A stretch of 34,328 nt of DNA from an uncultured archaeon. Its GTDB lineage: Archaea > Halobacteriota > Methanosarcinia > Methanosarcinales > Methanoperedenaceae. The stretch spans positions 1 through 34,328 of the forward strand of contig CABMCA010000075.1 in the NCBI GenBank assembly GCA_902384525.1. The letters are read 5' to 3'. The notes below the pieces were generated by a model. That model made no database searches. It was not told the origin of the DNA and saw only the letters and a program-made list of their open reading frames with translations. Shown here in pieces: positions 5,235 through 34,299 of the stretch (position 1 is the first letter of the stretch; each line of letters begins with the position of its first letter). The position numbers were made by a program, and so were the translations under genes.

Positions 5235-7430
5235 ATGAGTTTCTTACTAGACCCACCAATGCTGTTCGTTATAGGTGTATTGCTATATTTTTTAGGCAAT
5301 AAACTTGGATTTGAAAGGCTTGCAAAAATTACAATCGGCTTCCTTGTCGTTACTGCATTTATCCTGTTCAGTCTCTTGCTTTATGCAGATATTTTCCGTT
5401 GCATATTCCCGATAGTATGCAATAACATGAGCGGATCAGAATTCATGTTCCATTCGGATATTACAGGCATCTACAAGAAAGATGTTCCGCTGCTTGTGGT
5501 CATCGTGCTATTTGCATTGTATCCTGTCTGGATTTATCTTGGATATGCAAGTGCGCTTTTACTTACAAAACGAAGGAGATATTCTAAAGAGCTCTATTCT
5601 TATAATGATGTGAAAAGCAGAAAAAAACCTGCAAGCTCAAAATACTCTATTGTGCGATATCCCGATATAAAACAAGGAATAAATGATCCGCAGAATGCCA
5701 CCAGAGCTGCTGTTGATTCCCTTGGGGGAATGAAGAATTTCGTTAAAACCGGAGATAAAGTCCTTATCAAAGTGAATGTATGCGGAGGTGTGCCGGAATT
5801 AAAGGGAACCTATACAACAAAGGAAGTTGCAGGTGTTGTTGTGGATATGGTCCGCGAAGCAGGTGGTGAACCTTTCATCTGCGATGCTGACATGGTATGG
5901 ACAAAATTCTGGCCTAATGCAAAAGCAGAGGGATGGATAGAGTGGGCAAAGCAAAAAAATGTAAACATTGTTAATCTTTCTGATACGAAAATCGTGAATT
6001 TTGACTTTGGCGAAGATAATATGATGCCAGTAGAAAGGGTCTCAAAAGAGATCCTGGATTCTGATGTGATAATATCCATACCTGCGATGAAGACCCATAT
6101 GATGACAGGTGTGACGCTTGGGATGAAAAACATGTATGGAACTTTGCCTGAGATCGATAAGGCGCGATATCATAAGATCGGGATAGATGAAGTTATTTAT
6201 TATGTCAACAAAGCCTTCACCCCAAACCTGACAATAATCGACGGCAGTATTGGCGGTGAAACTGTAGGGCCCCTGTCGTGCGATTCTGTGGATTATCACA
6301 CTATTATCACCTCCAACGATGTAGTAACAGCCGACTCAATAGCTGCACAAATGATGGGCTTTTCAGACCCGATAGCGGATATCAGGCACATCCAGCTTGC
6401 CCATGAAAATGGAGTAGGTGATGCATCGCCAAGATTCGACCCTTCAATACTTCCGTATCAGCACAGTTCGGATATGAAATGGAAACGGCCGGATCCCGAT
6501 GTTGCAAAATTCTATGTATGGGGCACTCATGCATTGCTGAAGTTACCGGGTTGGGATTCTGTATTTAGCATTTGTTCCGATTTCTTTTTATATGATGCAG
6601 CAAGATTGCCAATCCTGAAATATTTCACGCCGGCCTTATTGCAGATAGTTAATGATGTCGCCAGCTGGTCACTGGGAAAGAAGCCGGATTCACCTGAAAA
6701 TAAAAAGAGAAGGGATATAAACCTGGGGATTTTTTCAATCCTTACATTGATGTCACTTTTTGGCTTTGTTTCTGGTGGATATCTGATGAAATCTTCACTA
6801 TACTTCAGCCTTGGATTTTTATTTTCAATTATTTCTGCAGGTTGGTTTGCCACAAGAATGAAAACAAAGCATTTTGTGGCGATCTCTTTAACATCGATCC
6901 TTATTTCGTTCCTGATAGAACGTTATACAACCCTTGCCGGAATGTGGCGTTATTTAGACAATGCAACGCCCCCGGTTTTTGCCCTGTTTTCAACGCCATT
7001 GTTAGTGATCACGATCATTGGTTTTTCTGATTTCTTAAGAAAAGTCTTTTCGTATGTTGAATTGAGCGGATCAAAACTCAGAAATATTCCATTTGTCCTG
7101 ATGCTGGTCGGGCTTGTGGCATTTATGCAATTTGAAGGATATTTAACGATCATTTCTAATGAAGTTATCGCTATTTATTCAGCATTTGCAATTTTAGGTA
7201 TATTCTATAATAATAAACAAACCCTGGATTGGAATCTGGCTGTAGCATCAGTCACTATTGGAATAAGCGGCACTATGGAGCTTCTGGGATCTTCTTCAGG
7301 TCTGTGGGGTTATCATTTTTCCGAAACGATGCCAGTGTTTTTGATCATGGGCTGGACAATGAATGTGTGGGCAGCATGTGCAATAGCGCAAATTTTTGGA
7401 ATAAATTTCAAAGAGGCGATTGCAGATTGA
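5235..7430 (+). CDS. DUF362 domain embedded between membrane segments
   Basis: 731 residues. Residues 1-110 hold about three hydrophobic segments and a basic KRRR stop-transfer patch. Residues about 135-400 form a DUF362 domain, recognisable from KVNVCGG, an ADMVW region, IPAMKTHMMTGVTLGMKNMYG and IIDGSIGGE. From about 490 to the end come six to seven predicted helices, with aromatic/acidic motifs such as ERYTTLAGMWRY and GLWGYHF that loosely recall lycopene-cyclase-like membrane folds. DUF362 proteins are often paired with ferredoxin domains and their chemistry is unknown. The start is supported by GGGG about seven bases upstream. The next gene begins 16 bases downstream, so the two are probably co-transcribed. 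No function can be assigned; a membrane-bound redox or lipid enzyme is only a guess. Confidence 0.82.
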   Translation: MSFLLDPPMLFVIGVLLYFLGNKLGFERLAKITIGFLVVTAFILFSLLLYADIFRCIFPIVCNNMSGSEFMFHSDITGIYKKDVPLLVVIVLFALYPVWIYLGYASALLLTKRRRYSKELYSYNDVKSRKKPASSKYSIVRYPDIKQGINDPQNATRAAVDSLGGMKNFVKTGDKVLIKVNVCGGVPELKGTYTTKEVAGVVVDMVREAGGEPFICDADMVWTKFWPNAKAEGWIEWAKQKNVNIVNLSDTKIVNFDFGEDNMMPVERVSKEILDSDVIISIPAMKTHMMTGVTLGMKNMYGTLPEIDKARYHKIGIDEVIYYVNKAFTPNLTIIDGSIGGETVGPLSCDSVDYHTIITSNDVVTADSIAAQMMGFSDPIADIRHIQLAHENGVGDASPRFDPSILPYQHSSDMKWKRPDPDVAKFYVWGTHALLKLPGWDSVFSICSDFFLYDAARLPILKYFTPALLQIVNDVASWSLGKKPDSPENKKRRDINLGIFSILTLMSLFGFVSGGYLMKSSLYFSLGFLFSIISAGWFATRMKTKHFVAISLTSILISFLIERYTTLAGMWRYLDNATPPVFALFSTPLLVITIIGFSDFLRKVFSYVELSGSKLRNIPFVLMLVGLVAFMQFEGYLTIISNEVIAIYSAFAILGIFYNNKQTLDWNLAVASVTIGISGTMELLGSSSGLWGYHFSETMPVFLIMGWTMNVWAACAIAQIFGINFKEAIAD

Positions 7431-7446
7431 AAAGGGGCTTAGAGAA

Positions 7447-9420
7447 ATGCACATTACCAAACAAAATCCAAATCAAAATACATCATTCGATCTCGACAAG
7501 AGTCACCTTTTCTGGTGCCATAAATGCAATATCCCCTTACTGGAAGCTCAATGCGGGATATGCAGGGAAAAAGGGTCAGAGGTTGACCTATCCCCACCCG
7601 GGGATGTTCGTTTTGCTTCACCCTATGAAAAAAACATAATCAATGACCTGATCTCAAAATCTTTTGGTGAAAATCCCATTTCTGAAAAACTTATCCTTTT
7701 GAATAAAATCCCTGGTGAAGATAAAACCGATGAAATAATCGTGGACGGGCTTCATTTCGGGATATTGAGATTCGATATGAAAGAGCTTGCCTTCAAGCTT
7801 GACCTGATGGTCGATGGAGCGTGTGTGCTTATTGATTCTGGAATAAGTAAAAAACTCGTAAAGATCTCATCCGGCGGGAGGCACCTTAGCGGGAAAAACC
7901 TGGATGGAACGCAAGTTATCGAATGTTCTGGTGATATCATAAAAGGGGACACCGTACTTGTAACAGGTAAGAACCTTTGCGGATTCGGGATAGCATACAG
8001 GGGCAGCACAGAGATGAAGACCCCGGGGCAATCGTTAAAGATAAAAAAAATCGGATCAGGAAAAGTATCTTTTTTGCCAGGAAAACCGCGGCTTGAAGAT
8101 GTCATCCGGGCAAATGCGCCTCACATGAAACGGCTTGTTAAGGACGCTGTCAATACCATAAAGGGAATTGCCAACCAGGAAGAATTCAGGGATTCACCTG
8201 TTTATGTTTCATTTTCAGGGGGCAAAGACAGCCTGACCACGCTTGATCTTACCCGCAGCGCTGTGAAAAAACCAATAAAAGTGTTCTTTGCAAATACCGG
8301 CATCGAGTTCCCGGAAACTGTTGAATTCGCACGTAGATTCTGCAAGGAAAACAATATCGATCTTATTGAAATCAATGTAAATGAAGCATTCTGGAAGAAT
8401 CTTCCGGATTTCGGGCCGCCTGCGAAGGATTTCAGGTGGTGCTGCAAGGTCTGCAAGCTGGCCCCTATTAACTCAGTAATAGAGGAGTGCACGCGCACAG
8501 GTAAAAAGTGCCTTACCATTGATGGGAAAAGGAAATATGAATCATTCACACGCTCACGGATCGCCCCAAAAGAAGAGAATCCGTTCATTCCTGGCCAGGT
8601 GAGCGTGTTCCCGATCCGGAACTGGCGTGCTATCGAAGTCTGGCTTTATATTTTTTATCGTAAACTTGAATATAATCCCCTTTATGACGAGGGTTTTGAG
8701 CGTGTTGGGTGCTGGCTTTGCCCTGCAGAACTGAGTGCAGAATATTACAGGTTCGGCCAGCTGCACCCTGAACTTTTTATACGGTGGAAAGAATATCTTT
8801 TGAATTGGGCAAAGGACTACGGTCTGGACGAGGCGTTTGTCACGCATGGGTTCTGGCGCTGGAAAACACTTCCTCCAAAGATGATCCGTCTTGCTGAAGA
8901 ACTCAAAATAAATACGAAATTGGAGCCTAAGAAAGAAGAATTCGGGATTATAGTGACAGGCGGAATTTCGCCGTGTAAGACAGGCGGATATACAATGGAA
9001 GGAAATATCACAGGACTTTTGCCCCGGGAAGCGCAAAATATCGCAAATATCCTGGGTGAAAAAGTTTTTTCAGAAGATCTCGGTGTGTTGTTGATCAATA
9101 CAAAAGATGGGAATGTCAGGATATTCTCATCAGGGCACATTTCTGTTAATGCGCCGGGAGATGAGAATGCACGATCTGTTTTTGAAAATACTGCAAAGCA
9201 GCTGATAAGAGTAAAAAAGTGTACAAAATGTGGTGTATGTTTGAAAGTCTGTCCTGTCAATGCCATTGTTCTTGAGCCGGACCTTAAAATCGGAAAAGTT
9301 TGCACCAGATGCGGTAAATGCACTGAATCATGCGTAGTCGTCAAATATTTTGACAGGATATTGCCAGATTTCAGGCATAAAAATGCAGAGCGATTTTCGA
9401 GGTCAAATACGATTCGATAA
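7447..9420 (+). CDS. PAPS-reductase-like protein with zinc ribbon, PUA-like and 2x[4Fe-4S] domains
   Basis: 657 residues. A zinc ribbon (C24, C27, C36, C39) is followed by a PUA-like RNA-binding region (about 150-215) and an ATP-pyrophosphatase of the PAPS reductase family with the PP-loop SGGKDS near residue 258. Cysteine pairs WCCKVC and CWLC surround the active centre. A further domain spans about 500-575. The C-terminus is a ferredoxin with CxxCxxCxxxCP (from about 589) and CxxCxxCxxxC (from about 619). The order resembles the uncharacterised methanogen family typified by MJ0066-like proteins; PUA plus PP-loop suggests RNA or sulfur-transfer chemistry rather than assimilatory sulfate reduction. 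I chose ATG 7447 because GGGG lies nine bases before it; an in-frame TTG at 7420 overlaps the previous gene. Confidence 0.88.
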   Translation: MHITKQNPNQNTSFDLDKSHLFWCHKCNIPLLEAQCGICREKGSEVDLSPPGDVRFASPYEKNIINDLISKSFGENPISEKLILLNKIPGEDKTDEIIVDGLHFGILRFDMKELAFKLDLMVDGACVLIDSGISKKLVKISSGGRHLSGKNLDGTQVIECSGDIIKGDTVLVTGKNLCGFGIAYRGSTEMKTPGQSLKIKKIGSGKVSFLPGKPRLEDVIRANAPHMKRLVKDAVNTIKGIANQEEFRDSPVYVSFSGGKDSLTTLDLTRSAVKKPIKVFFANTGIEFPETVEFARRFCKENNIDLIEINVNEAFWKNLPDFGPPAKDFRWCCKVCKLAPINSVIEECTRTGKKCLTIDGKRKYESFTRSRIAPKEENPFIPGQVSVFPIRNWRAIEVWLYIFYRKLEYNPLYDEGFERVGCWLCPAELSAEYYRFGQLHPELFIRWKEYLLNWAKDYGLDEAFVTHGFWRWKTLPPKMIRLAEELKINTKLEPKKEEFGIIVTGGISPCKTGGYTMEGNITGLLPREAQNIANILGEKVFSEDLGVLLINTKDGNVRIFSSGHISVNAPGDENARSVFENTAKQLIRVKKCTKCGVCLKVCPVNAIVLEPDLKIGKVCTRCGKCTESCVVVKYFDRILPDFRHKNAERFSRSNTIR

Positions 9421-28002: not shown

Positions 28003-28132
28003 AATAACTCACCCATATTCAAATAGGCTTGATTTTAGTTATAGTTTTCTCAAACTTTTAAAGAAAAAACCTACTTTTATTTGTATTTTTAAACCACAAC
28101 ACACATTAAAAAGCACACCCTTTTAGATAATA

Positions 28133-28181
28133 GTGACCGGAAAAAATACCTATCCAATTCTTTTTTCCCACCACCGGTCAC
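28133..28181. promoter_or_regulatory. Interrupted inverted repeat in divergent spacer
   Basis: GTGACCGG (28133-28140) is matched by CCGGTCAC (28174-28181) across 33 bases, and A-runs after the left arm can pair with T-runs before the right arm. It may be an operator or a leader structure. It lies in the 271-base spacer 28003-28273, about ten bases upstream of the first TTTAC dyad. Confidence 0.45.
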
Positions 28182-28189
28182 AACCACCT

Positions 28190-28208
28190 CTTTACATCAA
28201 CCGTAAAG
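28190..28208 (+). promoter_or_regulatory. Operator dyad 1 (CTTTAC-N7-GTAAAG)
   Basis: A perfect inverted repeat with 6-base arms and a 7-base spacer, immediately upstream of the TATA box GTATATATC (28208-28216). The same dyad recurs with identical spacing at 28220-28236 (arms 5 bases plus a changed outer base) and exactly at 29405-29423. Repressor binding here would block TBP access. Confidence 0.7.
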
Positions 28209-28216
28209 TATATATC
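28208..28216 (+). promoter_or_regulatory. TATA box of the YHS-module operon
   Basis: GTATATATC sits between two TTTAC-N7-GTAAA dyads, about 58 bases before ATG 28274. A GAAGGA ribosome binding site is near the start. Confidence 0.6.
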
Positions 28217-28219
28217 TAG

Positions 28220-28236
28220 TTTACATACATTGTAAA
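28220..28236 (+). promoter_or_regulatory. Operator dyad 2 (TTTAC-N7-GTAAA)
   Basis: TTTACATACATTGTAAA, centred about 29 bases downstream of dyad 1, falls over the expected transcription start. Left outer base is G instead of C. Confidence 0.65.
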
Positions 28237-28273
28237 GTTGAGAATTATGAGAAAATAAAATGAAGGAAAATAA

Positions 28274-28504
28274 ATGCACAGTGCGCTTATGTTGTCTATA
28301 ATTTTATTATCGTTGACAATTTTATTTGTTTTTCTTGGATATATTTTTTACAAAAAAACGAAAACAGACATTGTACCTGATATAAATAAGTATGAACAAC
28401 AGTTTGAAGAGGAATACAGGAATTTTGTTTCTGAAATTGATGAACCTGATAAGGATACAAACCATATTCCCAGGGATATACCATCTCAGGAGGCTAAGTG
28501 GTAA
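28274..28504 (+). CDS. Small single-pass membrane protein, first gene of the YHS module
   Basis: 76 residues. One N-terminal hydrophobic helix (LSIILLSLTILFVFLGYIF), then a basic KKTK patch and a polar, acidic tail with a helical QQFEEEYRNFVSEIDEPD stretch, predicted to face the cytoplasm. I do not recognise the family. It is controlled by the operator-flanked TATA box and overlaps the next gene by seven bases (28498-28504), so it is coupled to it. Probably an accessory subunit of the secreted or membrane proteins that follow. Confidence 0.7.
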   Translation: MHSALMLSIILLSLTILFVFLGYIFYKKTKTDIVPDINKYEQQFEEEYRNFVSEIDEPDKDTNHIPRDIPSQEAKW

Positions 28505-29376
28505 TCGTTATAAGGAGATCCGTTTCTATATTCATAGCGCTATTGTATTTGATAAACATAGCTTCTGCCGGGGTTCATGAGAGCGACAATATAAGTGTTG
28601 CTCTTGACCACATTTTCATAACGAAAAAAAATAATTCAATTGAGATATCCGAGATCGTCATATTCAGGAATGATGGTGAAGATATCCATTATAGCAAGGA
28701 CAACCATACTTTCTTTGCCATTTCAACTCCACCGGATATTAAGAATTTAAAAACCGAGGCAATGGAGTGTTGTCTTGTGCAGGATGAAGGAATAGTCTAC
28801 ATGGATCCAATGAAGTCCATAAAGTCCGGTGAAAATTTCGAGATGCAGATATCATATACATTCATTCAGGATCAAGAATATGTGTTCAATAAAAGTACTA
28901 TATATAATACCTCTTCTATTTCGATGTACGTTGATAAAACAAGTGGAATGGACATAGAAGAAATATCTGAGGTTATGACACTTTCAGGAAATGAATACAA
29001 AGTCATCAGTTTCAATAATCTCATGGCAGGGGAAACTGTCAGCATTCCAGTTAGAATAATACATGAGTCTGGTGATCTTTATGCCTGGATTGGATTGTTC
29101 TTTTTATTATCAACTGGTTTAATTTATGGTTTTAAGGATAAAATCATGGGGAGAAGAAAAAAAGAGCTTACGCTTGAAGAACTTGAGGTAGAGAAACGAA
29201 ATATTTTCAAGACAATTCACGGATTTGAAAAACATGCAGGACCTGAACACTCTGAGGAATACAGGAAATTAATGGATGAGTACAGGCAGAAAGCCATCCG
29301 GATTTTTATTAAGATCGACAACTTAAAAACAAAGAGCAGTCCGAATGATAAGTATCCAGGCAGAAGGTTGGAATAA
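28498..29376 (+). CDS. Secreted/anchored hypothetical protein with C-terminal cytoplasmic coiled coil
   Basis: 292 residues, GTG start at 28498 directly after CAGGAGG (28487-28493). The N-terminus is a signal peptide (about 1-25, ending SAG). Residues about 26-190 form an extracytoplasmic beta-rich domain with Cys pair MECC and a string of N-glycosylation-like NxS/T sites. A membrane segment (about 197-215) is followed by a basic, charged coiled-coil tail (EELEVEKRNIFKTIHGFEKHAG). The topology (sensor-like exterior, cytoplasmic coiled coil) is visible; no family is recognised. Coupled to the preceding gene. Confidence 0.75.
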   Translation: MVIVIRRSVSIFIALLYLINIASAGVHESDNISVALDHIFITKKNNSIEISEIVIFRNDGEDIHYSKDNHTFFAISTPPDIKNLKTEAMECCLVQDEGIVYMDPMKSIKSGENFEMQISYTFIQDQEYVFNKSTIYNTSSISMYVDKTSGMDIEEISEVMTLSGNEYKVISFNNLMAGETVSIPVRIIHESGDLYAWIGLFFLLSTGLIYGFKDKIMGRRKKELTLEELEVEKRNIFKTIHGFEKHAGPEHSEEYRKLMDEYRQKAIRIFIKIDNLKTKSSPNDKYPGRRLE

Positions 29377-29404
29377 ATACATCGCAGCCACTTTAAGATA
29401 CTTA

Positions 29405-29423
29405 CTTTACAACAAACGTAAAG
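29405..29423 (+). promoter_or_regulatory. Operator dyad 3 (CTTTAC-N7-GTAAAG)
   Basis: CTTTACAACAAACGTAAAG has the same outer sequence as dyad 1 with a different central 7 bases. It is followed by a TATA-like TACAAATATAG (29424-29434) and then the AGGAG and ATG of the YHS gene at 29475. It suggests an internal promoter with the same control. Confidence 0.7.
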
Positions 29424-29474
29424 TACAAATATAGTGAAAACCTAATAAGAATCATAAAAGGAGAAATAAAAAAT

Positions 29475-29666
29475 ATGCAGACAGACCCAATTTGTAAAAT
29501 GCAGGTAGATGAAAATACAGCACAGTACAAATCAGAATATAATGGTAAGACCTATTATTTCTGTGCGCCCGGATGTAAGAAAGCATTTGATTCCGAGCCT
29601 GAAAAATACAGCAAAAGCCAGCCTGTAAGTACAGGTGAGAAAAAACCCTGGTGGAAGTTCTGGTAA
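29475..29666 (+). CDS. YHS-domain metal-binding protein
   Basis: 63 residues. DPICKMQVDENTAQYKSEYNGKTYYFCAPGC shows the YHS (TRASH-like) pattern: Cys of PICKMQV, then YYFCAPGC with the usual aromatic and Cys residues. The family binds metal ions, most often copper, and occurs at the ends of P-type ATPases and as free proteins. The C-terminus ends KKPWWKFW, a basic/aromatic tail that may touch membrane or partner. AAAGGAG is 10-15 bases before ATG 29475 and operator dyad 3 lies about 50 bases upstream. It opens a second transcriptional unit of the same-strand set. Confidence 0.87.
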   Translation: MQTDPICKMQVDENTAQYKSEYNGKTYYFCAPGCKKAFDSEPEKYSKSQPVSTGEKKPWWKFW

Positions 29667-29677
29667 TGCATCTTTTG

Positions 29678-29755
29678 ATGATGAAAAATATGAAACATGG
29701 TACGCAGAACCCTGAAAGCCGGATTGATGAAAACAAGAAAGAGGAACTTACATGA
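29678..29755 (+). CDS. Possible 25-residue peptide between YHS and lipoprotein genes
   Basis: The frame begins MMKNMKHGTQNPESRIDENK and ends KKEELT, with the stop overlapping the lipoprotein ATG in an ATGA (29752-29755). That overlap is the usual sign of translational coupling. There is no clear ribosome binding site before ATG 29678. Four Met/His residues come early, but the peptide is otherwise ordinary. It could be a real small peptide or just a leader used to load ribosomes. Confidence 0.35.
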   Translation: MMKNMKHGTQNPESRIDENKKEELT

Positions 29756-30186
29756 GAACATCGAGAATTATAATCGTACTTTTTATCTTGATCATAGCAG
29801 CAGTTAGCGGGTGTTTATCAGGCAATAAACCCCAGACCGCTACTGTAGTTCCCACTTCTACTGTAGATAAAATATCAACAACGGATTCATCTGAAACAAG
29901 AGAAAACTCAGAAGCGGGAGTAACTATCACTGCTGTGTATCTTGGAAGCAATGCCTTTAATATTAAGCTGGATACACACTCAGTCCCACTGGACTATGAG
30001 ATGGCAAAGATATCCTATATCCGCGACAATAAAGGAAATACCATCAAACCAGAGTCCTGGGATGGCGGCATTGGAGGGCATCATTTTGGAGGCACCCTGA
30101 AATTCCCGGAATTTGATGATAGCGCCGGTTTTGAACTGGTTATCCAGAATGTTGCAGGAGTGAAAGAAAGAGTCTTAAAATGGTAA
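29752..30186 (+). CDS. Lipoprotein with GGHHFGG motif
   Basis: 144 residues. A signal peptide (hydrophobic to about 18) ends in a lipobox (AVSGC) and is followed by a Thr/Ser-rich linker (about 25-55). The mature domain is beta-rich and contains SWDGGIGGHHFGGTLKFPEF, whose paired His-Gly motif looks like a metal-site or turn signature. I do not know the family by name. GAGG lies about ten bases before ATG 29752. Within a run of metal-related proteins the His pair suggests a metal ligand, but this is inference. Confidence 0.78.
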   Translation: MRTSRIIIVLFILIIAAVSGCLSGNKPQTATVVPTSTVDKISTTDSSETRENSEAGVTITAVYLGSNAFNIKLDTHSVPLDYEMAKISYIRDNKGNTIKPESWDGGIGGHHFGGTLKFPEFDDSAGFELVIQNVAGVKERVLKW

Positions 30187-30190
30187 GTAT

Positions 30191-30682
30191 ATGTCTCTAA
30201 AACAGAGAATCAAACTTCATTTAAGAAATCCCTTTGTTTTTGGGGCAGGTATTGGAATCCTTGTAGTACTTTTTAATATCTCTATCGCTTCCCTGGCCGA
30301 AGGATCGTTTGAGAAAGGATACGAGGTATTTCTTACCAACGGGATATTTGTGTACCTGATCCCTCTTGCGGTCAGTGTGCAAATGGGACTTTTCAGATAC
30401 CACAGGAATATTACAACTGGTAATGTAGCAGGAACCGAAAAAATGGGCATGGCAGGTTCAGCCACTTCATCTCTGACGATGGTGGCTTGCTGCCTGCACC
30501 ATGTAAGTGATCTTTTGCCCTCAATTGGTTTGATCCTCGCAGCATCATCGTTCCTGGTCCGGTATAAAGACACCATAATAATTATCGGGCTACTTGCCAA
30601 CGTAGCCGGAAGCATCTACATCGCAAGAGCCATAATAAAAGATAGAATAATTATTGCAAATGTAGAAAAATCTGTTTCCTGA
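30191..30682 (+). CDS. Four-helix membrane protein with CCLHH motif
   Basis: 163 residues, about four hydrophobic segments. In the third segment the sequence MVACCLHHVSDLLPSIG places two Cys and two His in or next to the membrane, as in metal-transport or metal-sensing membrane proteins. The rest (FGAGIGILVVLFNISIASL, IPLAVSVQMGLF, TIIIIGLLANVAGSIYIA) is plain helix. The start ATG 30191 is five bases after the lipoprotein stop; Shine-Dalgarno weak. The next gene begins nine bases downstream. It could be a metal permease, a redox protein or a membrane factor of the same pathway. Confidence 0.78.
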   Translation: MSLKQRIKLHLRNPFVFGAGIGILVVLFNISIASLAEGSFEKGYEVFLTNGIFVYLIPLAVSVQMGLFRYHRNITTGNVAGTEKMGMAGSATSSLTMVACCLHHVSDLLPSIGLILAASSFLVRYKDTIIIIGLLANVAGSIYIARAIIKDRIIIANVEKSVS

Positions 30683-30690
30683 GGGAATAT

Positions 30691-31284
30691 ATGAAGAAAA
30701 AAGCTTATATTATCGTTATCATCGCTTTCGCACTGATGTTGTACTTGCTATATCAGCCAGCCATGAAAAGTATTTTCACAGAGAAATTAGGAGACATGAC
30801 ATTAACAAGATACGATACCGGCGATGTTGCAGCAAAACAGATATCGAATATATACGGAATAAATGAAATACCACTGGCGAAAGCATATTCAGCAGTATAC
30901 AGCAGCAACCATGGAACAATGCGCATATGGGCAGTCGAGGCCCCTGACCATAATATTGCAAATGATGCCTACAATACCATGAACTCTATGCTTGGAGGTT
31001 CATCAGTCATGGATGACATGGATATGCAAGGAGAGAGATCAAAGTCTAATGAAGGGCATGATAAACCTGGAATGATGAATGATAACTTCACAAAACCCGA
31101 AAAATTGGATTTCATGGAGTTTACCAAGCCTGATGTTTACATGATAAGAGAGAATAACATAATGAATTACTACTATTTTAAAATGAATTACAACATGGGG
31201 AGAGTCTACTGGATAATTTTTGACTCAACTGATATGGACTATCAGGTATCGATGGTGAAAGAGGCTGTAATTAATATCAAATAG
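30691..31284 (+). CDS. Membrane-anchored protein with Met/Asp/His-rich loop
   Basis: 197 residues. An N-terminal hydrophobic helix (AYIIVIIAFALMLYLLY) anchors an extracytoplasmic domain that opens IFTEKLGDMTLTRYDTG and closes NYNMGRVYWIIFDSTDMDYQ. In the middle, DDMDMQGERSKSNEGHDKPG and MMNDN form a Met, Asp and His-rich loop, a composition seen in copper-binding segments. GAGGG precedes ATG 30691. It ends just before the archaeosortase frame. The protein has no recognised family. Confidence 0.75.
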   Translation: MKKKAYIIVIIAFALMLYLLYQPAMKSIFTEKLGDMTLTRYDTGDVAAKQISNIYGINEIPLAKAYSAVYSSNHGTMRIWAVEAPDHNIANDAYNTMNSMLGGSSVMDDMDMQGERSKSNEGHDKPGMMNDNFTKPEKLDFMEFTKPDVYMIRENNIMNYYYFKMNYNMGRVYWIIFDSTDMDYQVSMVKEAVINIK

Positions 31285-31295
31285 GGGATATTATT

Positions 31296-32129
31296 ATTAT
31301 AACACAAACTCTCTGGATCTCCCTGGGACTTCTCATCATAGCATCATTCCTCCCAAAGTCCTTTAATTCAAGGTTCATCTTCGGGGGTTCTGGCTGGGTA
31401 TTCCTTTCAATCTACTGGTCAGGGCAGCTTGCGGGTTATATTGACCTTAAAGACTATGTCAATATCATCCTGGTAATCGCCGCAACCGCCGCCTCCCTCT
31501 TTATAGCACATATAACATTCCAGGCGAAAGATAATATCGATAAAAGCGGCTATGAAGTGTTTATTTCATTGTCAAGGGCTGCATCTGTTGGCGGTTTGAT
31601 ATATTTCATGTTCGCAGAAGTCGGGTTTTTGAACACCTGGATAATTTCAACGGTCACAGGACAGGGAGTATGGCTTGTAGAGAAATTCGGGTTTCCTGTT
31701 GCACAGACTGCATGGAACAAGCTTGCGGTCAATGGCCTTCCTATTGAAATAATACTTGCCTGTACCGCTATCGAAAGCATCGCCCTGTTTTCAGGCATAA
31801 TTTCTTCTGCGACTGGTGCGACTACTGCAAGAAAACTCCAGGTATTTATGATCTCAGTGCCTGTGATCTATGTACTGAATATTATAAGGGTCTCATTTAC
31901 TGCCTCAGCCTATGGATTAAGCTGGTTTGGCACACCTGATGAGAGTTTCCATATTTCAGAACATATTATAACAAAGGCAGGCTCATTGATTGCTTTAATG
32001 TTGATTTCTTATACGGTTCTAAAAATGCTGCCTGAAGTTGCTGATATGATAGATGGTATCCTGAAGATGATGAGAATAGAATTTCGCAGGATGGTTGGAA
32101 GTAACAATGAAACTAAAAGTGAACTATGA
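31296..32129 (+). CDS. artA: Archaeosortase A-like cysteine transpeptidase (start uncertain)
   Basis: About 277 residues with seven to eight membrane helices. The catalytic triad of the exosortase/archaeosortase family is visible: Cys in ACTAIES, Arg in NIIRVSF and His in ISEHII. ArtA processes PGF-CTERM proteins; one such protein is at the left edge of this window. The frame reads back through LWISLGLLIIASFLP and only ends upstream at 31272-31274, yet has no ATG/GTG/TTG before GTG 31558-region, which would remove the first helices. I put the start at ATT 31296, seven bases after GGGGA (31284-31288); ATT 31293 or ATA 31299 are equally possible. It sits right behind the Met-rich protein, so it may be co-transcribed with the metal-like module. 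Confidence 0.85.
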   Translation: MITQTLWISLGLLIIASFLPKSFNSRFIFGGSGWVFLSIYWSGQLAGYIDLKDYVNIILVIAATAASLFIAHITFQAKDNIDKSGYEVFISLSRAASVGGLIYFMFAEVGFLNTWIISTVTGQGVWLVEKFGFPVAQTAWNKLAVNGLPIEIILACTAIESIALFSGIISSATGATTARKLQVFMISVPVIYVLNIIRVSFTASAYGLSWFGTPDESFHISEHIITKAGSLIALMLISYTVLKMLPEVADMIDGILKMMRIEFRRMVGSNNETKSEL

Positions 32130-32400
32130 TTTTATCCAGCAGGAACTCGTCGGGGATTCAGATGTTTTTGAGGTTGCAGATGCAGCTAAACTTGGGGATT
32201 TGCTGCGGTTAATAGATATCAGGATCACGGAAGCTGGAAAAAAGAAGGGTATAGAGACAACTTATAAAACAATCCTGGCTGGCGATCAGTTGAATGCTTG
32301 CATGGTTTTTATTAATACTTGCGCACCGGAAAATATTATGGATCATGAATTACATGATGGGGACACTGTTGAATTTGTTTATGGTTTTTGCGGAGGATAG
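32107..32400 (+). CDS. MoaD/ThiS-like ubiquitin-fold protein with C-terminal Gly-Gly
   Basis: 97 residues. A beta-grasp pattern (KLKVNYDF, then a central helix LGDLLRLIDIRITEAG, late DGDTVEFVYGF) ends in CGG, the C-terminal di-Gly used as the sulfur carrier or ubiquitin-like conjugation site in MoaD, ThiS and archaeal SAMP proteins. Which of these it is cannot be decided; no activating E1-like enzyme is in the window. The start is ATG 32107 inside the end of the archaeosortase gene (overlap about 23 bases). DUF63 begins two bases after its stop. Confidence 0.82.
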   Translation: MKLKVNYDFIQQELVGDSDVFEVADAAKLGDLLRLIDIRITEAGKKKGIETTYKTILAGDQLNACMVFINTCAPENIMDHELHDGDTVEFVYGFCGG

Positions 32401-32402
32401 TT

Positions 32403-33242
32403 ATGAGTGGATTGATCGATTTCATAAACCGGAATTTTATTGAAGGTATCGTTAATGATACCAGTTATAATCATTTTGACATGATCACTTATGTCATTAT
32501 TTTGTTCGTGGGTGTATTTGTTATTACGAAACTGTTGAATAAATTGAGAATAAAGGTCGATGAAGAATTTGTCATAGCCACGATCCCTTTTATTTTTATG
32601 GGTTCGGTGTACCGTGTGATCGAGGATGCTGATCTTTTAAAGCCGCCAGTGAAATATTTTTTCATCACGCCACTTATTTTCTTTGTGATCTTTGCAATAT
32701 GTTTCGGGACTCTTCTCGTTGCGAGGTATCTTGAAAAGCGGAAGAAAATAAAGAATTATACTCATGCTTATGCGACTACCGGCCTTATATTATCGTTAGC
32801 AGTAGTTGTGATCTTAATATTTAATACCTCTTCGAAATGGAATCCGGGTATTCTGGTCTATGCTCTTGTGCCAGCCATAGCTTTGACAGAAATTGTAAAA
32901 AAACTATCGCCCGTGATCGGTATGACCTATCTTAGAAGCCGGATGTATTCATTTGCGATCTTTTCATTTTTGCTTGATTCATTTACAACATACATAGGTG
33001 TAGACCTGATGGGTTACATGAATAAGCATCCATTCAGTTCATTCCTGACTTCAATTGCTGGTACAGGGGCTGTATTGATCCCCTTATCCCTGGTCCTGGC
33101 CATGTTGATAATCCTGATGCTTGAAAAAGATTCCGCCAAAGAAAAGGGCACGGATGAAAAGTATATGTTGACCTTGACGTTGATAGTTCTTGGTTTTTCA
33201 ATGGGGGCACGGAATTTGCTGGCAATGGTATTTGGAGTTTAG
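32403..33242 (+). CDS. DUF63 integral membrane protein
   Basis: 279 residues, about seven to eight hydrophobic helices. The N-terminal GLIDFINRNFIE and the DEEFVIATIPFIFMGSVYRVIEDADL segment, with a later YMNKHPFSS loop, match DUF63, an archaeal membrane family of unknown function. The start is ATG 32403, with GGAGG (32391-32395) eight bases upstream inside the 3' end of the preceding gene. It closes the archaeosortase-MoaD-like-DUF63 run, suggesting a shared membrane or surface role. Confidence 0.83.
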   Translation: MSGLIDFINRNFIEGIVNDTSYNHFDMITYVIILFVGVFVITKLLNKLRIKVDEEFVIATIPFIFMGSVYRVIEDADLLKPPVKYFFITPLIFFVIFAICFGTLLVARYLEKRKKIKNYTHAYATTGLILSLAVVVILIFNTSSKWNPGILVYALVPAIALTEIVKKLSPVIGMTYLRSRMYSFAIFSFLLDSFTTYIGVDLMGYMNKHPFSSFLTSIAGTGAVLIPLSLVLAMLIILMLEKDSAKEKGTDEKYMLTLTLIVLGFSMGARNLLAMVFGV

Positions 33243-33245
33243 CAG

Positions 33246-33546
33246 CACTTACAACGTAAATTTTCAGTAAGGATAATCAACCACAGAGAACGCAGAGATC
33301 ACAGAGTTGTAATAACTCTCTGTGTACTCTGTGCGCTCTGTGGTTTCTTCATCCTTCCTCGAATGCTTGGGAAAAGCATATATTCTATATACAAGACAGT
33401 ATCTCCGAAGAAAAATAACCCCTTCGAAAAAATCCCCTAAAAAAGCATTCGTCTTAAACTATTGCAGATGTGGGCATATTACCGAAAGACGTCGTGATGT
33501 TCTCCCGGCCTGCACCCCCTTATAAATGAGATATGGAGATGGCTAT
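33246..33546. other. Spacer between DUF63 and the broken insertion sequence
   Basis: Apart from the inverted repeat I see no intact gene. A plus-strand frame ends NYCRCGHITERRRDVLPACTPL (stop near 33523-33525), with zinc-ribbon-like CxC...C spacing. It could be the remnant of a larger gene, but the rest of the frame is featureless. Confidence 0.35.
33279..33345. repeat. Inverted repeat built from 9-bp CACAGAG units
   Basis: The left arm (33279-33306) contains CCACAGAGA, ACGCAGAGA and TCACAGAG, about three 9-base steps. The right arm (33316-33345) is a near-complement with changes mainly at the two-base linkers. A nine-base loop separates them. The RNA would form a long hairpin. Similar CACAGAG-periodic palindromes are known to recur in many environmental genomes, which is from memory, not checked. 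Confidence 0.7.
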
Positions 33547-34150
33547 CTATTGAATTTTCTTTTTTTCGTAATTAATCATCTGATCCAATTCTTCTCTAAC
33601 CTTATTATTTTTAGGGACAAAAATCAAATACGGGTAACATGCTTGGTTCAATGTGAGCATAAGTTCTTTGTTAAAAAACCCTCTATCGAATAACATCAAT
33701 TTTATTGAGTTGACCAATGGCTTTACCATTGAATAACACCAGCAAATTTCCTTAGCCATGTTGTGACCAACATGAACCGGAATAGATATCAAAGGGATTT
33801 TCTGGGGAATATCCGAGCTTACAATTGCACACGTGAGAAACTTGAACTGTATAATCAAACGCCAGAATTACATCCTTTCTATCAAGCTGAAATCTGGTTC
33901 CAAGAAGTTCGACGGTTTTAAGATACCCCCAAGATATTGGCTCCTGGCACTTGTTTAATTGCAAGAGGATAGAATCTGCTCGTCTGCCTACAGTTTCCAG
34001 ATAAGTGTTTGCCAAGGCTGCATGTAATAAATCAAGATCATAGTCGAATCCTGAAAGGATATTCCCATTTGGTTTTATTCCGAGAGCACGATCGATGAAT
34101 GTATCAATTGTTTTGAGTGACCTAAAGTATCTATCAGTTTTAACGGTCAA
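33547..34150 (-). pseudogene. Frameshifted, 3'-truncated DDE transposase (IS4/ISH3-like)
   Basis: Two minus-strand frames carry one transposase. The first (from TTG 34150 or ATG 34195) reads RYFRSLKTIDTFIDRAL and reaches LAFDYT with the first catalytic Asp; the second (33858 to 33547) reads FLTCAIVSSDIPQKIPLISIPVHVGH and LMLFDRGFFNKEL with the second Asp. They join by a one-base shift near 33845-33855. The C-terminus with the catalytic Glu is missing, as the frame stops at 33547. The element is dead here. It lies next to a small DUF2080 protein, as expected for this kind of archaeal IS. The exact IS family is uncertain. Confidence 0.78.
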
Positions 34151-34299
34151 ACTATCACCAGATATACTGTTCGGTCGATGTATTCTTTGGGACAATCAAC
34201 TTTTGCACTGTTGCCAAATTTTGTTACTTTGCGAATGAAGAATCCTTCGATTCCTTCAATCTCAAGATGAGTCTGGGCTTGAATTTCAACTTTTTTCAT
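34147..34299 (-). CDS. DUF2080 transposon-encoded protein
   Basis: 50 residues. It begins MKKVEIQAQTHLEIEGIEGF and has FIRKVTKFGNSAKVDCPKEYIDRTVYLVIV, the pattern of DUF2080, a small protein encoded just before transposase genes in archaeal insertion sequences. The KFGNSAK motif resembles an AbrB/SpoVT-type strand, suggesting DNA binding. The stop overlaps the presumed TTG start of the transposase. The IS extends to the right of the window. Confidence 0.85.
   Translation of the reverse strand: MKKVEIQAQTHLEIEGIEGFFIRKVTKFGNSAKVDCPKEYIDRTVYLVIV

Follow-up and report, generated by a model that had tools for sequence, protein, structure and literature searches.

Palindromic operators of a probable autoregulated BlaI/MarR-like repressor with a partner M48 protease in Candidatus Methanoperedens

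We find that three palindromic TTTAC-N7-GTAAA sites in a 34,328-nucleotide stretch of archaeal DNA (the window) are probably operators of an autoregulated BlaI/MarR-like repressor, which is encoded elsewhere in the genome in one operon with an M48 membrane protease (we put this reading at about 0.8). The sites, their spacing, enrichment, conservation and promoter placement, their co-occurrence with the regulator and the synteny of regulator and protease are shown; binding, repression and control by the protease are inferred, and the signal is speculative. The host is a Ca. Methanoperedens, and the closest named relatives of the regulator come from Ca. Methanoperedens (ANME-2d) genomes, the same genus as the window.

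Operator sites in the window and across genomes

The window contains three exact TTTAC-N7-GTAAA dyads (28191-28207, 28220-28236 and 29406-29422). Operator 1 (CTTTACATCAACCGTAAAG, 28190..28208) abuts the upstream side of a TATA box (GTATATATCTAG, 28208..28219, plus strand), which forms the 12-bp linker to operator 2 (TTTACATACATTGTAAA, 28220..28236) on its downstream side. Operator 3 (CTTTACAACAAACGTAAAG, 29405..29423) lies upstream of a YHS gene and is followed by a TATA-like sequence (CAAATATAG, 29426..29434, plus strand; by inspection). Copies 1 (28190-28208) and 3 (29405-29423) extend to CTTTAC-N7-GTAAAG, and the outer bases of copy 2 are G...G. All three dyads obey a tighter rule, TTTACR-N5-YGTAAA, and the consensus operator reads [C/G]TTTACR-N5-YGTAAA[G/C]. 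Exact matches to the tighter rule number 3 in the window compared with 0.01 expected from dinucleotide shuffles (0 of 100 shuffles reach 3); with up to one mismatch allowed, 5 matches compare with 1.42 expected.

An earlier note on the window, made from the sequence alone, had described the three dyads, the 29-base centre spacing of the first two and the outer extension of copies 1 and 3, all of which held exactly, as did its placement of two copies around the TATA box before position 28274 and of the third before the YHS gene. It had read the spacing as about three helical turns. The centre-to-centre distance between operators 1 and 2 is indeed 29 bp. Precisely this pairing is shared by 9 distinct promoters, and in every one of them the linker is 12 bp long and TATA-like. 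Because these pairs bracket the TATA box and the remaining operator pairs are spaced 24, 25, 27 or 28 bp, TATA-box occlusion fits the spacing better than helical phasing alone.

Enrichment was measured by pattern searches of the 2.92-Mb host assembly. Counts of TTTAC-Nk-GTAAA for k = 4 to 10 are 3, 4, 4, 13, 2, 5 and 6, and 0, 1, 1, 13, 0, 1 and 1 when the inner R...Y rule is imposed (hand count). N7 is the sole enriched spacer, with 13 sites compared with 0.67 per other spacer, and the rule is obeyed by 13/13 N7 copies versus 4/24 copies of the other spacers (hand count). The N7 excess has a Poisson probability of ∼3e-4 when the plain form is counted and of ∼4e-13 when R...Y is also required; the latter value is somewhat optimistic, because the rule was noticed in the same 13 sites. 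The rule is confirmed in genomes outside those used to discover it.

Eight genomes of the Methanoperedens family that carry the regulator described below contain 111 exact sites versus 16 reversed controls, and 13 genomes from that order which lack it contain 9 versus 13. This comparison is partly phylogenetic, since all eight regulator genomes belong to one family. Sites and reversed controls number 10 and 2 in M. nitroreducens, 6 and 2 in Methanolobus profundi, 6 and 1 in a Thermoplasmatales MAG, and 4 and 3 in a Methanosarcina. Three sites cluster around the regulator and its divergent neighbor in Methanosarcina and Methanolobus, and four in the Thermoplasmatales MAG; sites away from the regulator locus in the first two are mostly intragenic, and we took them as chance occurrences. 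A dyad is located 30-85 bp upstream of operon-type ccmE in 13/13 cases examined and upstream of a second class of ccmE from the same genus in 0/8 (Fisher P 5e-6), so that not every ccm gene belongs to the regulon. The upstream operator of the ccmE promoters in L193, L200, L209 and L212 is homologous to operator 1. In at least nine other loci the YHS cluster is likewise preceded by operator 3, with a changed core (orthologous sites in L061, L062, L073, L142, L143, L192-L195, L198 and L199).

Could the dyads be functionless AT-rich palindromes that arose by chance or base composition? In favor of this explanation, plain-motif matches in the host genome do not exceed those of the reversed-pattern control (13 versus 14), and a search allowing up to one mismatch returns noise (49 versus 75 control matches). 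The case therefore rests on the spacer, the inner R...Y, location and conservation, not on raw counts. Spacer specificity, the shuffles, the 13/13 orthologous promoters, conservation across phyla and dependence on the regulator all speak against chance, which we consider virtually ruled out.

A candidate regulator and its partner protease

One of the 13 genomic sites targets the gene of a 119-residue winged-helix protein (G000:C10:10145-10501, minus strand), with the operator at G000:C10:10505, 3 bp ahead of the start codon. Penicillinase_R (PF03965) is the best of seven Pfam hits for this protein (40.1 bits compared with a cut-off of 22.6), and the MarR and TrmB models are likewise above cut-off; Penicillinase_R is the family of BlaI, MecI and CopY (Pfam). 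The NCBIfam CopY_TcrY equivalog is not reached (23.1 of 121.95 bits), and no BlaI/MecI model is among the NCBIfam matches. An AlphaFold model (pLDDT 89) resembles the winged helices of MarR, MecI and TFE; the match to MecI (1sd6) has an E of 8e-4 and a TM of 0.53, and MarR-type and TFE structures score equally well or better. Cysteine is absent from the 119-residue protein and from the consensus of 17 orthologues.

We located 54 loci of this regulator in genome contigs (protein identity 39-100%), and in 53 of them a dyad starts 19-21 nt before the regulator ATG (47 exact, 6 with one mismatch). The loci with a dyad come from Methanoperedens, Methanosarcina, Methanolobus, other Methanosarcinaceae, an ANME-2 MAG and Thermoplasmatota. 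Across 31 Methanoperedens loci, the 17-mer is far better conserved than its flanks, and within this genus it is set off, together with the TATA box, from an upstream region of poor conservation. The operator in this autoregulatory promoter sits between the TATA box and the start codon, and the order TATA box-operator-ATG probably reflects an autorepressor, for which we have no binding or expression data. That the repressor binds the 17-bp N7 dyad is likewise inferred, without binding data or a structure showing such binding. Copies of the regulator are also found in other contexts. Both the regulator gene and the protease gene lie between PCYCGC and YHS in L142 and L143, within the counterpart of the window's own ccm operon. 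In L144 the regulator gene follows CcdA, and L148 has a more distantly related paralogue, transcribed divergently from a thioredoxin-PCYCGC-CcdA-CcmF operon; each of these copies has a dyad at its own start.

The same dyads might instead be activator sites, at which the BlaI/MarR-like protein would recruit TBP/TFB and the protease would destroy the activator. Archaeal activators bind just upstream of BRE/TATA, and this is the position of operator 3, of the upstream copy of each pair and of the site in some target promoters. A few target promoters have a site solely on the upstream side of the TATA box, an arrangement that would also suit an activator. Against this, the autoregulatory site, like the second copy of each pair, is placed between the TATA box and the start, the usual location of repressor sites. 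We consider activation unlikely and retain the repressor reading.

Directly downstream of the regulator, 48/54 loci encode a 220-240-residue HExxH membrane protein; several of the remaining six end near the position of the protease gene. The regulator stop and protease start codons usually overlap, as they do in the host, where the regulator is the first gene of the operon. The host protease (224 residues) passes the Peptidase_M48 model (PF01435) and stays below the cut-off of Peptidase_M56 (PF05569, BlaR1) at 19.8 of 31 bits, with no sensor domain. Its nearest structural neighbors are the M48 proteins BepA, a putative Zn peptidase and ZMPSTE24, with BlaR1 a weaker match (E 0.02; moderate-confidence model). 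The protease is thus more like HtpX/Ste24/BepA than BlaR1, which counts against our main reading. Beyond the catalytic residues, C9, C13, Q52, M66 and C68 are invariant in 48/48 proteases. The cysteines and methionine of the membrane part may form a Cu(I) or thiol sensor, a possibility inferred from sequence alone.

A second Penicillinase_R regulator of the host overlaps an M48/M56-like protease gene (G000:C106:4033-5260, L055) and forms an independent pair of the same architecture. This regulator is 34% identical to the candidate, and we set it aside as the binder, as the 9 kb around it contain no dyad. TTTACR-N5-YGTAAA is absent from these 9 kb, and the pair presumably uses another operator.

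Several expectations of the earlier note can be judged from these data. A protein-binding dyad with a regulator acting in trans is strongly supported, with the candidate encoded at G000:C10 and binding data still lacking. No repressor gene is present in the window's block, as stated, yet the regulator lies inside or beside the block in relatives (L142, L143 and L144). Among the suggested ArsR/DtxR/CopY-like regulators, CopY-like comes nearest, through Penicillinase_R, and the protein is a cysteine-free BlaI/MarR-like regulator with an M48 protease. A random genomic distribution, or lack of conservation upstream of orthologous blocks, would have refuted the note's proposal; both checks were run and passed, as the targets are non-random and orthologous blocks keep the site upstream.

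Regulon targets and the gene block in the window

In the host, the sites precede the regulator operon, the window block, a CcdA gene, a gene for a NapH-like protein with a Met-rich N terminus, a thioredoxin-PCYCGC-CcdA-ferredoxin operon, a thioredoxin-CcmF operon and, on C66, a small membrane protein gene. About three of the 13 sites (C89, C118 and C119) have no clear target, a point against our main reading. M. nitroreducens shows the same target set: the TRASH-domain regulator described below, thioredoxin-PCYCGC, CcdA, the Met-rich NapH-like protein, a ccmE operon, a cupredoxin operon and the regulator itself. The sites in L144 lie between a copper P-type ATPase gene and CcdA. In Methanosarcina, Methanolobus, other Methanosarcinaceae and Thermoplasmatota, dyads are found between the regulator and a divergent transporter operon, which encodes an FtsX-type ABC transporter with its ATPase and an FtrD-like (PF10080) protein.

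A further target raises the alternative that a different regulator binds the dyad, the most plausible one being a TRASH-domain Lrp/AsnC copper sensor (CopR-like), with the BlaI-like gene as a mere target. In support, a site lies 8 bp upstream of a TRASH-domain AsnC-type regulator gene beside a copper-type P-ATPase gene in the host (L051), and the same TRASH gene is preceded by a site in M. nitroreducens (L180). However, in Methanosarcina and Thermoplasmatota the BlaI-like gene has the site at a constant position, -20, regulator copies and dyad travel together into new contexts (L142, L143, L144 and L148), and TRASH genes occur at only two examined loci. We regard a TRASH-type binder as very improbable and the BlaI/MarR-like protein as the preferred one.

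We also noted a second palindrome near some operators. On C119 (L054 5451-5752; G000:C119:15450-15751), TTCGTATATATACGAA and variants occur three times at intervals of ∼140 bp in a stretch with few genes, alternating there with an exact operator and a near miss, and another copy (TTCGTATTGATACGAA) is found 28 bp after an operator on C118 (L053:4562). This palindrome could be the site of another regulator or a duplicated intergenic element. A near-identical second YHS gene adjoins the operator-controlled CcdA on C95 (L052:6306-6561), with a one-mismatch operator (TTTACGTGTTATATAAA) upstream.

The earlier view of the window genes as one block can be refined: the block is probably the deletion remnant of a ccmE-ccmF-ccmH operon for cytochrome c maturation, in which operators 1+2 and operator 3 have been retained. 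In relatives, this operon encodes CcmE, CcmF, CcmH, a large carboxypeptidase-regulatory-like protein, a second CcmH, an orthologue of the 28498 protein, a cupredoxin, a CcdA-like protein and a PCYCGC protein, followed by an operator and YHS. By blastn, window positions 28050-28262 correspond to the ccmE promoter of L193 (85% identity; 89% in L212 and L200), 28308-29343 to the C-terminal part of the second ccmH of L193 plus the next gene, and 29345-29667 to its YHS region. This segment layout implies that ∼4.8 kb and ∼1.7 kb of the relatives' operon are absent. At the second deletion junction (29343..29345), the L193 coordinates jump from 6392 to 8073, and the cupredoxin, CcdA/DsbD_TM-like and PCYCGC genes of relatives are missing. 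An assembly error in this MAG is not excluded, and decay versus refunctionalization remains undecided. The host assembly has one further ccmE-like gene (C119:20766, 39% identity).

The 76-residue open reading frame at 28274..28504 (plus strand), which aligns at the DNA level to ccmH of L193, L192 and L061, is a CcmH stump, because 28308-29343 aligns to the C-terminal part of the second ccmH. It retains the C-terminal membrane segment alone and lacks the CPCEC...CDC redox part; full CcmH of L193 matches PF03918, and the remnant has no Pfam match. It is followed by a 292-residue membrane-anchored protein of unknown function (28498..29376, plus strand), which is regularly encoded in the ccm operon of Methanoperedens and has homologues in 27/60 relatives searched, and by the 63-residue YHS-domain protein (29475..29666, plus strand; PF04945, E 6.5e-19). 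Co-oriented genes for a lipoprotein (29752), a 163-residue membrane protein (30191) and a 197-residue envelope protein (30691) span 29752..31284 (plus strand), an order kept in relatives. The archaeosortase A, ThiS-like and DUF63 genes beyond them (31284..33242, plus strand; TIGR04125 E 3.3e-63, PF02597 and PF01889) may be read from the operator promoters or may be ordinary neighbors.

Three observations concern the surroundings of this block. The two CcmH-type genes in the operon of relatives (L193:2903-5519 and orthologues) differ from each other, both match PF03918, and they are separated by the carboxypeptidase-regulatory-like protein (∼560 residues). At 33281-33345 the window contains a CACAGAG-rich inverted repeat (ACCACAGAG ... 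CTCTGTGGTTT) resembling a small mobile or REP-type element. At the block's downstream end (33547-34195, minus strand), overlapping open reading frame fragments look like a broken transposase.

Proposed mechanism and relation to known systems

We propose that each dyad would be occupied by a dimer of the regulator. The first two operators, which bracket the TATA box, would then block TBP/TFB (or RNA polymerase), and operator 3 abuts the TATA box ahead of the YHS gene. A cell-envelope signal, speculatively copper or thiol stress, would activate the protease, and the active protease may release or cut the repressor in the manner of BlaR1/BlaI; loss of the repressor would induce the genes for cytochrome c maturation, for CcdA and thioredoxins, and for metal handling. 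We favor copper or thiol stress as the signal because the targets include the copper-ATPase/TRASH locus, YHS, cupredoxin, CcdA and thioredoxins.

A bolder reading, tentative and as a whole more apt to fail than to hold, is that archaeal signaling across the membrane by a protease plus repressor either predates the divergence of Methanosarcinales from Thermoplasmatota or was passed between the two lineages. The system would first have controlled the FtsX/FtrD-like transporter and then have been extended in Methanoperedens to thiol redox, copper handling and cytochrome c maturation; the M48 protein would detect the copper or thiol state through its invariant membrane Cys/Met. The multiheme cytochromes of Methanoperedens carry extracellular electron transfer and hence methane oxidation. 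No regulator of cytochrome c maturation in archaea is described in the open-licence literature we searched, and our work names a regulator, gives its operator, lists targets and points to a likely sensor. As the system is conserved into the genetically tractable Methanosarcina, direct testing is feasible. If true, control of the BlaR1/BlaI type by a membrane protease would extend to archaeal envelope and redox physiology.

The genes under the operators in relatives (ccmE, ccmF, ccmH and ccdA-like) are those of the archaeal Ccm system of Methanosarcina acetivorans (PMC9084895), a study in which a word search found no mention of a regulator or transcription factor. CcmH has already been noted in ANME-2d (PMC9012536), a paper that does not mention BlaI or M48. 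Archaeal BlaI/M48 operators are not described in the open-licence literature searched, an absence that is not proof. Like the archaeal TRASH-domain Lrp regulators of the CopR/CopT type (Pyrococcus furiosus CopR, PMC7830388), the system would control an archaeal copper-ATPase gene, but the regulator belongs to another protein family, and the TRASH gene, which carries a dyad, appears to be target rather than binder.

The closest outline is that of BlaI/MecI-BlaR1/MecR1 from Staphylococcus and Bacillus licheniformis: a small, autoregulated Penicillinase_R winged-helix repressor, a co-operonic membrane zinc metalloprotease and paired operators at the promoter. In contrast to BlaR1/MecR1, the archaeal protease is an M48 protein without a penicillin-binding sensor domain; and unlike BlaI/MecI, the archaeal regulator is paired with TTTAC-N7-GTAAA rather than TACA-N2-TGTA, with TATA promoters, and with targets in cytochrome c maturation, thiol redox and metal handling. 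The archaeal operator fails the family form TACANNTGTA, its half-sites being three bases further apart. With the copper repressors CopY/CopR/TcrY, whose operator is RNYKACANNTGTMRNY (PMC7253601), the regulator shares the Pfam family, TAC...GTA half-sites and some copper-gene targets (P-type ATPase, YHS and cupredoxin); it differs in operator spacing, in its equivalog score (23 versus 122 needed) and in lacking the C-terminal cysteine metal-binding motif of CopY. Because the outline is alike, yet operator spacing, the M56 family, the sensor domain, the cysteine motif and the equivalog scores all fail, we regard the archaeal system as a variant of BlaR1-BlaI/CopY.
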